Below, in pieces: positions 32,859-43,846 of a stretch of 64,000 nt of DNA. The stretch comes from SAR86 cluster bacterium. GTDB lineage: Bacteria > Pseudomonadota > Gammaproteobacteria > Magnimaribacterales > AG-339-G14. Within the stretch, counting starts at the first letter, position 1, and each line of letters starts with the position of its first letter. The stretch covers positions 127,194 to 191,193 of the forward strand of contig JAOIHS010000001.1 of assembly GCA_028135785.1 (NCBI GenBank), in the 5' to 3' direction. A model generated the notes under the pieces. The model did not search any database. It had not been told where the DNA came from and was given only the letters and a program-made list of their open reading frames with translations. A program made the position numbers and the translations under genes.

Positions 32859-32877
32859 TAGGCCCATATAGGGCCTA
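32859..32877 (-). terminator. hairpin between initiator tRNA and rimP
   Basis: Perfect 7-bp stem TAGGCCC/GGGCCTA with a 5-base loop, followed on the minus strand by TTTATTAT. It starts 3 bases after the tRNA 3' end. It may be a partial terminator or tRNA 3' processing signal between the tRNA and the rimP-nusA-infB operon. In E. coli, terminators after metY are read through with NusA-dependent control, so a similar role is plausible but not shown. Confidence 0.55.
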
Positions 32878-38899: not shown

Positions 38900-39384
38900 T
38901 ATTTATGGAGCACAGATAAAATTTCATATTCTTGAATACCCGAAGGGCTTTCAAATTTAATTACATCGCCTTCTTCTTTTCCAATTAAAGCCCTAGCTAG
39001 AGGAGAAGAATATGAAATTTTTCCAGTCTGAACATCGGCTTCGTCCTCACCGACAACTCGGTAAGAGACTTTTATGTCATCTGAAAGATTAACCATAGAT
39101 ATTGTTGTACCAAAAATTATTTTTCCTGAACTAGGAATAGATAAGACATCTATCACTTGAGCTCTACTAAGTTTCGATTCAATTTCTCTTATTCTTGCTT
39201 CTGCCAAGCCTTGTTGTTCTTTAGCAGCATGATATTCTGCATTTTCTTTTAAATCTCCAAATTCTCTGGCAGTAGCTATCTCTTTAGAAATCTTAGGTCT
39301 TTGGGTAGTTAAATGATCGAGCTCCTCACGCAGCAGGATTTCTCCCTTTACGGTCATTGGCTCCCTATCTTCAATTCCACTCAT
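38899..39384 (-). CDS. greA: transcription elongation factor GreA
   Basis: 161 residues from the ATG at 39384, which overlaps the carB stop (ATGA); a longer in-frame start at 39417 exists but is less likely. N-terminal coiled coil with the acidic tip ([18 protein letters not shown]), then the FKBP-like domain ending in [16 protein letters not shown]. It rescues backtracked RNA polymerase by transcript cleavage. Downstream of carB as in Pseudomonas. Confidence 0.96.
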
Positions 39385-42300
39385 GAATGTATATCTTGAA
39401 GTTTTTGCACTGACCAATCAAGCTCATTCGTTATTACTTTGCAAATTGCAACCGCGCCTTGAATGGTAGTAGTGCAACAAATCTTTTGATCTAAAGCGGT
39501 TCTTCGAATAGAAGCTGAGTCTTTGATTGATTCCCTACCCTCTGTTGTATTAATCACAAGACTGATTTCATTATTTTTCATTAAATCTATTATGTGAGGC
39601 CTTCCTTCAACGACCTTATTAATTTGTTTTGCTTCATATCCAAGTTTATTTAACGTTCTTACTGTTCCTTTAGTTGCAACGAGTGCAAAATCTTTAGAAG
39701 TTAAATCTTTAGCAATTTCCTCTAGAAACTGTTTGTCAGTATCTCTTACACTTATAAAGGCAGCTCCACTTTTAGGGATTTGAACTCCTGCTGCTATTTC
39801 TGCTTTCTCAAAAGCCTCAATAAAAGTTTTTCCTATCCCCATTACTTCTCCAGTGGATCTCATTTCTGGACCTAAAATAGGATCAACATTTTGAAATCTA
39901 TCAAAAGGCATTACGGCTTCTTTTACACTAAAGAAATCTAATTCTGGAACAGAATCTATTCCTTGATCTTTCAGAGATATTCCTGCCATTACTCTTGCTG
40001 CAATTGCAGCTAGAGGCATACCTAAAGCTTTTGAAACAAATGGAATTGTTCTTGATGCCCTTGGATTAACTTCGAGTAAATATATTTTTTCATTTACATA
40101 TGCCAATTGGACATTAACTAGTCCTATTATTTCCATATTTTCTATAACTTTAGTAACTTCTTTTTTTATATTTTCTAAAGCTTCGTTAGAAATATTGTAT
40201 GGAGGAATTGAGCAAGCTGAATCTCCTGAATGAACTCCAGCCTGTTCTATATGCTGCAAGATTCCGCATATGAGAATATCTTGTCCGTCACTGATAGCTT
40301 CTACATCGAATTCAATTGCCACATCTAAAAATTTATCCAAAAGAACTGGATTTGAATCATTTACTTGAAATGCTTCCGTTAGATATATTATTAAGTCTTC
40401 TGTTCCATAAACAATTTCCATTGCTCTTCCACCTAAAACATAAGACGGCCTTACAACGATCGGGTAACCAATTTTATTTCCTATTTCAATAGCTTGCTCT
40501 TTGTTGGAAGCCATTCCATTTGGAGGTTGGGTTAGGTTATTATTTTCGACAAACTCTAAAAACCTTGCTCGGTCTTCTGAAAGGTCAATTTGATCTGGAG
40601 ACGTTCCAAAAATAGGAACCTTAAACCTTTCTAAATCGTTAGCTAATTTGAGAGGAGTTTGTCCTCCGTATTGAATTATCAATCCATCTGGTTTTTCAAC
40701 CTCGATAATCTCCATGACGTCTTCTAAAGTTATTGGTTCAAAATACAGACGATCTGATGTGTCGTAATCTGTTGAGACAGTTTCTGGATTGCAATTGACC
40801 ATTATTGTTTCAAATCCATTTTCTCTTAATGCTTGAGCAGCATGTACACAACAATAGTCAAATTCAATACCTTGTCCAATTCTATTTGGACCACCGCCAA
40901 GAACCATTACTTTTTTTCTTTCTGTCGGGTTTGCTTCACATTCATCCTGATAGGTTGAATACATATAAGCAGTTGTTGTTCTAAATTCTGCAGCACAAGT
41001 ATCAACTCTTTTAAAAACAGGATTAATATTTAATTCTTTTCTTGAAGATCTTATTTTATCTTCCGAAAAAGATAATATTGAAGATATTCTTTTATCAGAA
41101 AAACCCATTTTTTTTGCCTCCAAAAACATTTCTTTATTGGATAGAAAACCTTCTTTTTGAATTTCTTTCTCAAAATCAATAATATTTTTTAATTCCATTA
41201 AAAACCAAGGATCTATTCCGCTCATTTGATGGATATCATCTATAGAGTATTCTTGTCTGAGAGCTTCGCCTAAGTAATAAATTCTTTCTGGAGTTGGCGT
41301 TATTATTCCAGCTCTTAATTCTGATTTTTTTAATGGTTTTTCAAAGGGATCTAATCCACTTTTATCTATCTCTAAACCTCTGATAGCTTTTTGAAAAGAT
41401 TCTTTAAAAGTTGAGCCGATTGCCATAACTTCTCCAACAGATTTCATTTGTGAAGTTAAAGTATGAGTGGCTCCAGAAAATTTTTCGAAATTAAATCTAG
41501 GGATTTTCGTTACTACATAATCGATAGTAGGCTCAAAAGATGCGGGGATACCATCTTCACTTATATCATTTTCTAATTCATCTAAAGTGAAACCTACTGC
41601 AAGCTTAGCTGCTATTTTTGCGATTGGAAAACCTGTAGCTTTTGAGGCTAAAGCTGAGGATCTAGAAACTCTAGGATTCATTTCTATTACAACCATATCT
41701 CCATTTTTAGGGTTTATAGCAAATTGCACATTGGAGCCTCCCGTTTCGACTCCAATTTCTCTCAAAATTGCCATAGAGGCATCACGCATGTGTTGAAATT
41801 CTTTATCTGTAAGAGTTTGTGCAGGAGCAACTGTTATTGAGTCGCCAGTATGAACGCCCATGGGGTCAAAATTTTCAATACTACAAATAATTATGCAATT
41901 ATCTGCCTTATCTCTAACAACTTCCATTTCATATTCTTTCCAACCTGTTAAATACTGATCTATATATAGCTCTGTAGTAGGAGAAAGGTCCAAGCCTCTT
42001 TCACATATATATTCAAATTCATCAATATTATAAGCAATACCGCTCCCTGTTCCGCCCATAGTAAAATTTGGTCTGATAATGCATGGAAAACCAACCTCGG
42101 AAAGTATTCTGTTTGCTTCTTCAAGATTGTGAGCTAGTCCGGCTTTAGGAGTCTTTAAACCAATTTTCTCTATGGCTTGGGCAAATTTTTCCCTATCTTC
42201 AGCTTTATCAATAGCTTCTTTAGTGGCGCCTATAAGCTCAATATTAAATTCTTTCAAAACTCCGTGCTTGTCTAAATCTAACGCCGCATTTAAACCAGTT

Positions 42301-42578
42301 TGACCTCCCATAGTAGGTAAAATTGCATCTGGTTTTTCTATAGCAATTATCTTTTTTAATGACTCCCAATTAATAGGTTCGATATATGTAGCATCAGCTA
42401 ATTCTGGATCGGTCATTATTGTTGCTGGATTTGAATTTACTAAAATGACTCTAAACCCCTCTTCTCTTAAAGCCTTGCATGCCTGAACTCCAGAATAATC
42501 AAATTCACATGCTTGTCCTATAACAATAGGACCTGCTCCAATAATTAGTATAGATTTTAAATCTGTTCTTTTAGGCAT
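39381..42578 (-). CDS. carB: carbamoyl-phosphate synthase large subunit
   Basis: 1065 residues (E. coli 1073). Two homologous ATP-grasp halves (about 1-400 and 550-930) make carboxyphosphate and then carbamoyl phosphate, followed by the MGS-like allosteric domain (from about 935). Start [22 protein letters not shown] and its second-half echo [17 protein letters not shown] are diagnostic. It supplies pyrimidine and arginine synthesis. It abuts carA without a gap. Confidence 0.99.
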
Positions 42579-43700
42579 CTATTTTTTATCTTTAAAAGTT
42601 TTGATATTGGCAATAAATTTATTAAATAAGCTTTGTATGTCTTTAGGTCCTGGACTTGCCTCTGGATGTCCTTGAAATCCAAATACATTTCCATTTTTTA
42701 ATGAAATGCCTTGAATAGATTTATCAAATAAAGATCTATGAGTTACTTCGACATCATCAATTAAACTTTTTTCACTGATTGTAAATCCATGATTTTGACT
42801 CGTTATAAAAACAGATTTATTTACTAAATTTTGGACTGGGTGATTTGCTCCATGATGACCAAACTTCATTTTTTCTGTTTTTAAATCTAAAGCTAAGCCA
42901 AGCAATTGATGACCGAGACAGATACCAAAAATAGGGAAGCCTTGCTCTATTAATTCCTTAATTGAAGATATGGCATAGCTACATGGCTCAGGATCTCCTG
43001 GTCCATTTGAAAGAAAAATTCCATCAGGACTTTCTTTAATAATTTCTGAAGCGGGAGTTTCAGCTGGGACGACCTTTACTTCGCAACCTCTATCGACTAA
43101 TAATCTTAATATATTGTGCTTAACTCCAAAATCATAAGCGATTACTTTGTAGACTGGCTTTAACGGAATTGTTTGATAAGAAGGTTTATCCCAAGTATAA
43201 GTTTTTTTTGTACTGACTACTTTAGCTAAGTCTTTTCCTTTTAAATCATCGAAACTATTCAATAAAGACTGCGCTTCTTTTTCAGAAAATTTTCCTGGAA
43301 TTATTGCAGCAATTTGAGAACCTTTTTCACGGAGAATTCTAGTAAGTTTTCTAGTATCTATATTAGCAATACCTGGTATTTCTTTTTCATCAAGGAAGCT
43401 CGATAAATCACTTTCGTTTCTCCAACTACTTTCTATTTTAGAGAGCTCTTTGATTACTACTCCCGAACAGCCTCCATAACTAGATTCTAGATCTTCATTA
43501 TTCACGCCTGTATTACCAATTTGCGGATATGTAAAACATACTATCTGGTCGGTGTAAGAAAGATCTGTAATAATTTCCTGATACCCAGTCATTGAGGTAT
43601 TAAAAATAAGTTCGCCAACTTTTGAAATATCGGAACCGAAACTGATTCCTTGAAATAGCTCTCCTGATTTCAATATTAAGGTAGCTGGTTTAAAGTCCAT
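42579..43700 (-). CDS. carA: carbamoyl-phosphate synthase small subunit
   Basis: 373 residues (E. coli 382). The N-terminal domain is specific to CarA; the C-terminal glutaminase domain holds the catalytic Cys in FGICLGHQLLG and the His-Glu pair in GFQGHPEASPGP. It feeds ammonia through a tunnel to CarB. First gene of a tightly packed run reaching secG and tRNA-Leu. An AGG sequence lies 5 bases before the ATG. A terminator-like hairpin sits in its leader (43729-43768). Confidence 0.99.
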   Translation of the reverse strand: MDFKPATLILKSGELFQGISFGSDISKVGELIFNTSMTGYQEIITDLSYTDQIVCFTYPQIGNTGVNNEDLESSYGGCSGVVIKELSKIESSWRNESDLSSFLDEKEIPGIANIDTRKLTRILREKGSQIAAIIPGKFSEKEAQSLLNSFDDLKGKDLAKVVSTKKTYTWDKPSYQTIPLKPVYKVIAYDFGVKHNILRLLVDRGCEVKVVPAETPASEIIKESPDGIFLSNGPGDPEPCSYAISSIKELIEQGFPIFGICLGHQLLGLALDLKTEKMKFGHHGANHPVQNLVNKSVFITSQNHGFTISEKSLIDDVEVTHRSLFDKSIQGISLKNGNVFGFQGHPEASPGPKDIQSLFNKFIANIKTFKDKK

Positions 43701-43728
43701 TCTTACCTAATAGCGATAATAAATTTTT

Positions 43729-43768
43729 AAAAAAAATCGCGACATAGTGAAAACTAAGTATCGCGATT
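43729..43768 (-). terminator. candidate transcription attenuator in the carA leader
   Basis: On the minus strand, AATCGCGA (43768-43761) and TCGCGATT (43742-43735) form a perfect 8-bp stem; an inner TAGT/ACTA stem with a TTTC loop can stack inside it. The right arm runs directly into a U-tract (A-run 43729-43736 on the plus strand). This is the form of an intrinsic terminator, but it lies between the candidate promoter and the carA ATG, so it would act as an attenuator. The GCGATA of the left arm (43764-43759) can also pair with TATCGC (43718-43713) near the ribosome site, a possible alternative structure. Confidence 0.6.
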
Positions 43769-43773
43769 ATTTG

Positions 43774-43796
43774 TTCTAATGCCGTTTGCATTAGAA
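43774..43796 (-). promoter_or_regulatory. hairpin at the 5' end of the carA leader
   Basis: Perfect 9-bp inverted repeat TTCTAATGC/GCATTAGAA with a 5-base loop. If the promoter at 43801-43829 is right, the transcript begins at about this hairpin, just upstream of the attenuator. It could protect the 5' end, act as a protein operator, or form part of the attenuation switch. Confidence 0.5.
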
Positions 43797-43800
43797 AATG

Positions 43801-43829
43801 ACTATAATGAATTTATCTTAGTTAGTCTA
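43801..43829 (-). promoter_or_regulatory. candidate promoter for the carA-secG run
   Basis: Minus strand TAGACT (43829-43824), 17 bases, TATAGT (43806-43801). Predicted start near 43794, giving a leader of about 95 bases. On the plus strand the same bases give a TATAAT (43803-43808) that could serve map, without a good -35. Confidence 0.4.
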
Positions 43830-43846
43830 TGTAATATATAAATAAA

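Follow-up and report, generated by a model that had tools for sequence, protein, structure and literature searches.

A probable transcription attenuator read out by leader translation ahead of carA in SAR86 bacteria

SAR86 bacteria are among the most abundant uncultured bacteria of the ocean and have streamlined genomes. The stretch of DNA analysed here (the window) comprises 64,000 nt of the SAR86 cluster bacterium assembly GCA_028135785.1 (JAOIHS010000001.1:127,194-191,193), and all coordinates given below are those of the window. A comparison of whole genomes likewise assigns the source to SAR86 (Gammaproteobacteria), the group of its closest named relatives. On its minus strand carA, carB, greA, rlmE, ftsH, folP, glmM, tpiA, secG and tRNA-Leu succeed one another with near-zero gaps, the gene order that a preliminary description of this DNA had already given. 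The other neighbour of the carA leader, map, is divergent from carA. The leader was compared with its counterparts in a set of 79 analysable leaders from three SAR86 families (f1, f2 and f3), collected with a pattern that already included the spacing between the -10 element and the leader ATG. Within the three families, every carA whose own upstream region is intact matched this pattern; the pattern-negative genomes belonged to family f4, carried carA behind a coding sequence read as pyrF (f3 genus g21 and G159) or had truncated contigs. The features of the locus are the following.

43824..43829, minus strand: -35 element TAGACT, of the form T[AG]GAC[ATG] and exactly 17 nt from the -10 element in 79/79 leaders
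43801..43806, minus strand: conserved -10 element TATAGT, with the leader ATG following after exactly 9 nt in 79/79 leaders (a spacing included in the collecting pattern)
43792..43796, minus strand: predicted window for the transcription start, TTCTA (pyrimidines followed by A), at positions 5-9 counted from the -10 element
43774..43796, minus strand: 5' hairpin TTCTAATGC-AAACG-GCATTAGAA, 9 bp, covering the leader AUG, its pairing kept across leaders
43690..43791, minus strand: leader ORF of 33 codons (MQTALEQIIAILSFHYVAIFFKNLLSLLGKNGL, then stop), crossing the terminator and stopping 11 nt inside carA
43729..43768, minus strand: intrinsic terminator, contained in the leader ORF, with the stem AATCGCGATA/TGTCGCGATT, the inner stem TAGT/ACTA and a run of eight T
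42579..43700, minus strand: carA, at the head of the run proposed to be under control, ATG at 43700, matching CarA homologues
39381..42578, minus strand: carB, starting immediately after the end of carA
32859..32877, minus strand: strong terminator-like GC hairpin TAGGCCCTATATGGGCCTA with a T-rich tail, from the terminator scan, after tRNA-Met and before rimP

The promoter and the 5' stem are present in all 79 leaders. Downstream of the -10 element, positions 8-12 (TAATG) are invariant and positions 6-7 are pyrimidines in every one of them, and because the distance from the -10 element to the AUG is constant, the leader AUG would lie at or very near the 5' end of the RNA. It sits within the stem of the 5' hairpin and has no Shine-Dalgarno sequence. 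The preliminary description had noted a 9-bp hairpin at the predicted 5' end, and it is indeed found at 43796-43774(-), all upstream of the carA ATG. In a gap-corrected count 91.5% of the cells of this helix are paired, compared with 34-46% in slid versions of the alignment. Most of the helix does not vary, and one pair alternates between C-G, U-A and U-G; the helix has weaker covariation support than the terminator, and it includes both the start codon and the promoter edge.

The terminator is formed by the arms AATCGCGA(TA)...(TG)TCGCGATT at 43768-43735(-), which run into eight T at 43736-43729. Taken alone it has a folding energy of -13.3 kcal/mol, whereas its shuffles average -3.7 (z -5.0, with 0/200 shuffles as good), and the fold of the whole leader beats 200/200 shuffles (z -6.1). 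A standard scan missed it because of a loop limit of 8 nt; with a widened loop range it becomes the strongest site in 43846-28400(-). The terminator helix is paired to 88.2% (gap-corrected count) against 33-52% when slid, and six of its pairs have changed on both sides, while the linker between the two hairpins is variable. On an alignment of 34 distinct leaders from f1 and f3 (A1), both helices together reach 89.8% paired compared with 36-45% in slid versions, and the covariation score exceeds that of 500/500 shuffles. As in an intrinsic attenuator, the terminator lies between the promoter and the first gene and closes no upstream gene, because map points the opposite way. The stem and U-tract seen earlier upstream of the carA ATG stand as described, the terminator is conserved in all f1 and f3 leaders, and the proposal of attenuation ahead of carA is strongly supported by the two-sided pair changes in f1 and f3, the divergent map and the precedent from Pseudomonas. 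The second state proposed alongside it, in which the left arm would pair with TATCGC, fared less well. In the window, GCGATA is indeed complementary over 6 nt to TATCGC near the carA ribosome site, but among the 48 leaders that have a T run only 2, which are close relatives, carry TATCGC 3' of the U-tract, and this antiterminator was rejected.

Attenuation was therefore the part of the earlier interpretation that held, and the proposed switch the part that did not; the leader ORF at 43791-43690(-) had gone unnoticed. This ORF has as its start codon the AUG within the 5' hairpin, at exactly 9 nt from the -10 element, and remains open to carA in 27 of 31 representatives, where dinucleotide shuffles lead one to expect 4.8. 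The representatives are less than 80% identical yet still related and are not independent trials, so that the computed open-frame probability of 6e-20 is overstated by their shared ancestry. Of the 79 leaders, 65 have the ORF frame open, none the +1 frame and seven, six of which belong to genus g3, the +2 frame. In 65/79 leaders there is an overlap of 1-17 nt between the leader stop and the carA start, and in three more the two lie within 2 nt of each other. A conserved leader peptide can be ruled out: nonsynonymous changes in the ORF outnumber synonymous ones, by far in f2, where the changes have no third-position bias; a mild third-position excess is seen within f1 genera. Selection seems to act on the act of translation and not on the peptide, and on this comparative basis translation of the leader ORF is the likely switch.

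The distribution of the element within SAR86 includes a set of natural variants. The full architecture is found in 35/35 analysable f1 leaders and 10/10 f3 leaders. The terminator lies inside an ORF that extends past it in genera g1, g2 and g4 and in f3, but not in genus g3 (eight leaders), where the terminator is kept but the leader ORF ends either within it or shortly upstream of it. In family f2 the 5' stem and the leader ORF have been retained, and an intrinsic terminator is missing; the terminator would therefore not be the sole purpose of the ORF. The f2 leaders, for example L185 (G139) and L176 (G116), show a TAATG/TAGTG overlap with carA. The f2 leaders look G-poor and pyrimidine-rich, a composition that could suit Rho-dependent control. 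In family f4 the promoter adjoins carA and the leader is absent. It is absent, too, in f3 genus g21 and in G159, where carA lies directly behind a coding sequence resembling pyrF; the pyrF-linked loci are L164-L169, L171, L172, L174 and L175 (G178, G177, G171, G172, G175, G169, G163, G176, G159, G167). Together the variants in g3, f2, f4 and f3 genus g21 argue that the ORF may serve more than terminator control, and with the terminator lost, the leader shortened or the whole leader gone in different lineages, they allow what terminator, hairpin and ORF each contribute to be told apart in reporters.

Leader switches in which translation decides the expression of the downstream gene are known in other bacteria. 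From the promoter, 5' stem, terminator, open frame and stop/start overlap established by comparison we infer a start site, termination, coupling and a signal, and we consider it probable that carAB, and perhaps the later genes as well, are under a transcription attenuator read out by translation of the leader ORF. Transcription would start at about 43794-43792, which places the leader ORF at, or a few bases from, the 5' end of the RNA. Without a ribosome close behind RNA polymerase the hairpin would form in the middle of the ORF, and transcription would stop after an RNA of about 65 nt. A ribosome that initiates at the leader AUG and keeps pace would cover the left arm of the terminator, so that the polymerase enters carA. 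The same ribosome, terminating at a stop codon that overlaps the carA start, could then re-initiate on carA; re-initiation across such short stop/start distances is a known idea (PMC4833913). The peptide would be irrelevant, translation itself being what counts. Control by the leader over the whole 10.6-kb run from carA to tRNA-Leu is plausible because no further strong terminator precedes the hairpin at 32877-32859(-), which is a possible end of the carA transcript, although internal promoters may also be present. The minus-strand scan gave two weaker terminator candidates, one within glmM and one within secG.

One elaboration would add a pyrC-like sensor to the attenuator, with the initiating nucleotide reading the pyrimidine pool. 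At high UTP/CTP, transcription would start at the pyrimidines before AAUG and the full 5' hairpin would hide the leader AUG; at low UTP/CTP it would start at the A and leave the AUG free, and leader translation would then decide termination in f1 and f3 or re-initiation on carA in f2. The fixed spacing and the YYYAAUG window of 79/79 leaders fit this scheme, as does the 5' stem, which needs those pyrimidines and whose pairing survives the change from C-G to U-A and U-G, and so does f2, whose leaders retain stem and ORF although the terminator is gone; at E. coli pyr genes, start-site effects that depend on UTP have been described (PMC6245113). However, transcription normally initiates only weakly at a pyrimidine, and the TAATG block may be conserved merely as promoter edge and start codon, which leaves such a start-site switch unlikely. 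If true, it would join a pyrC-type start-site switch and a pyrBI-type attenuator in one leader, a two-stage pyrimidine sensor. Similarly doubtful is the idea that the leader ORF simply feeds ribosomes to carA while the terminator acts as a constitutive, unregulated brake. The nearly universal stop/start overlap speaks for it, and f2 shows the coupling layout without a terminator, but in f1 and f3 the terminator has been kept by two-sided pair changes inside the ORF, and an ORF that serves coupling alone needs none.

The 5' dyad might instead act at the level of DNA, as an operator on which a repressor sits over the start site while the terminator is a minor modulator. The half-site TAATGC/GCATTA is indeed nearly invariant while the loop varies, yet several observations make a DNA operator quite improbable. 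The dyad, that is the 5' hairpin, occurs only once in the window's genome and roughly once per genome, at carA, across the family, with extra copies near background, and a repressor regulon was rejected on these grounds; its symmetry is broken in g2 by a change that still allows U-G pairing in RNA, and ArgR is absent. It is very improbable that the element is an independent small RNA gene, about 65 nt long, lying before carA by chance. Promoter, 5' stem and terminator would make a complete small RNA, and an RNA of this kind is made from the carA leader of P. syringae (PMC4997734), but the linker varies without an evident seed, the ORF frame is conserved into carA, and the element is lost where carA follows another coding sequence (f3 genus g21) or adjoins the promoter (f4).

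Judging from pyrBI and from Pseudomonas carA, the translation-read attenuator would most likely respond to the level of pyrimidine nucleotides. Arginine, which the preliminary description had named next to uracil, is disfavoured: ArgR control is unlikely because the ArgR domain occurs in 0/76 SAR86 genomes (control genomes were positive in 9/14 cases, and the window's own genome is only 65% complete), and the leader peptide of the window has no arginine codon. With no such codon and no conserved alternative pairing, the leader does not qualify as a codon attenuator of the trp/his type either. Between the leader AUG and the terminator no long U-rich pause tract was found, short U runs occurring in the terminator loop only, so that UTP-sensitive pausing is without clear sequence support. 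How biosynthesis is controlled in streamlined SAR86 genomes without regulators such as ArgR is of general interest, and the carA leader would be an example, spread through nearly the whole order, of control that resides in the leader.

A leader peptide was reportedly described for P. aeruginosa carA by Kwon et al. in 1994. Attenuation in the carA leader of pseudomonads has been reported and pyrimidine control proposed, and in P. syringae deletion of the stem-loop raised expression of a carA reporter (PMC4997734). The SAR86 leader resembles P. syringae P32 in having a terminator between promoter and carA, and its GCGA...TCGC-U stem resembles stems at Pseudomonadales carA loci; unlike the SAR86 leader, that of P. 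syringae reportedly has no start codon, and ArgR sites are found in pseudomonads (PMC4997734). The closest mechanistic parallel is offered by E. coli pyrBI, where a ribosome on the leader ORF containing the terminator prevents termination (PMC5021804, PMC4824070). Like pyrBI with its pyrL leader, the SAR86 locus holds an intrinsic terminator in a short leader ORF upstream of a pyrimidine-pathway operon, and it would require neither special codons nor a particular peptide sequence, the SAR86 peptide not being conserved. Unlike pyrBI, the SAR86 element is found at carA, its leader ORF opens with an AUG that is part of a 5' stem and follows the -10 element by 9 nt, its leader stop overlaps the gene start, it has no clear U-rich pause tract, and no sequence relation between the two is shown. 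The attenuated RNA rnTrpL of S. meliloti has the AUG of its leader ORF as its 5' end, as the predicted start site would imply for SAR86, but it is alphaproteobacterial, controls trp genes and has no sequence or gene relation to the SAR86 leader (PMC7298713). The carA RNA motif of Polynucleobacter is likewise a structured RNA directly upstream of carA; unlike the SAR86 element it is betaproteobacterial, consists of a single extended hairpin at the ribosome site and has been proposed to be a riboswitch, and no terminator inside an ORF has been described for it (PMC8632094).

Against the Rfam families, riboswitches included, neither the leader nor any of 14 wider carA loci reached the gathering score, and hits at E up to 10 were at chance level only. 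A covariance model of the leader (R1) had one match among 369 class-level genomes outside SAR86, in G248, and this was rejected as an ordinary terminator that does not precede carA; within SAR86 the model did not match the f2 genome G100, as expected of a leader without a terminator. No published description of the SAR86 carA leader was found, and no obvious conserved leader ORF was seen by eye at 25 carA loci of other Gammaproteobacteria. What is new is the SAR86 form, with its conserved leader ORF near the 5' end that overlaps carA; carA leader terminators as such are known, pseudomonads included. Leader terminators occur at 35 of 80 carA loci of Gammaproteobacteria, eight of the 35 from SAR86. 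In L035, L036, L042, L044, L050, L062, L089 and others, all from Gammaproteobacteria outside SAR86, a terminator of the GCGA/TCGC type lies about 50-120 nt before carA, and carA terminators of this type may go back to an old shared attenuator.
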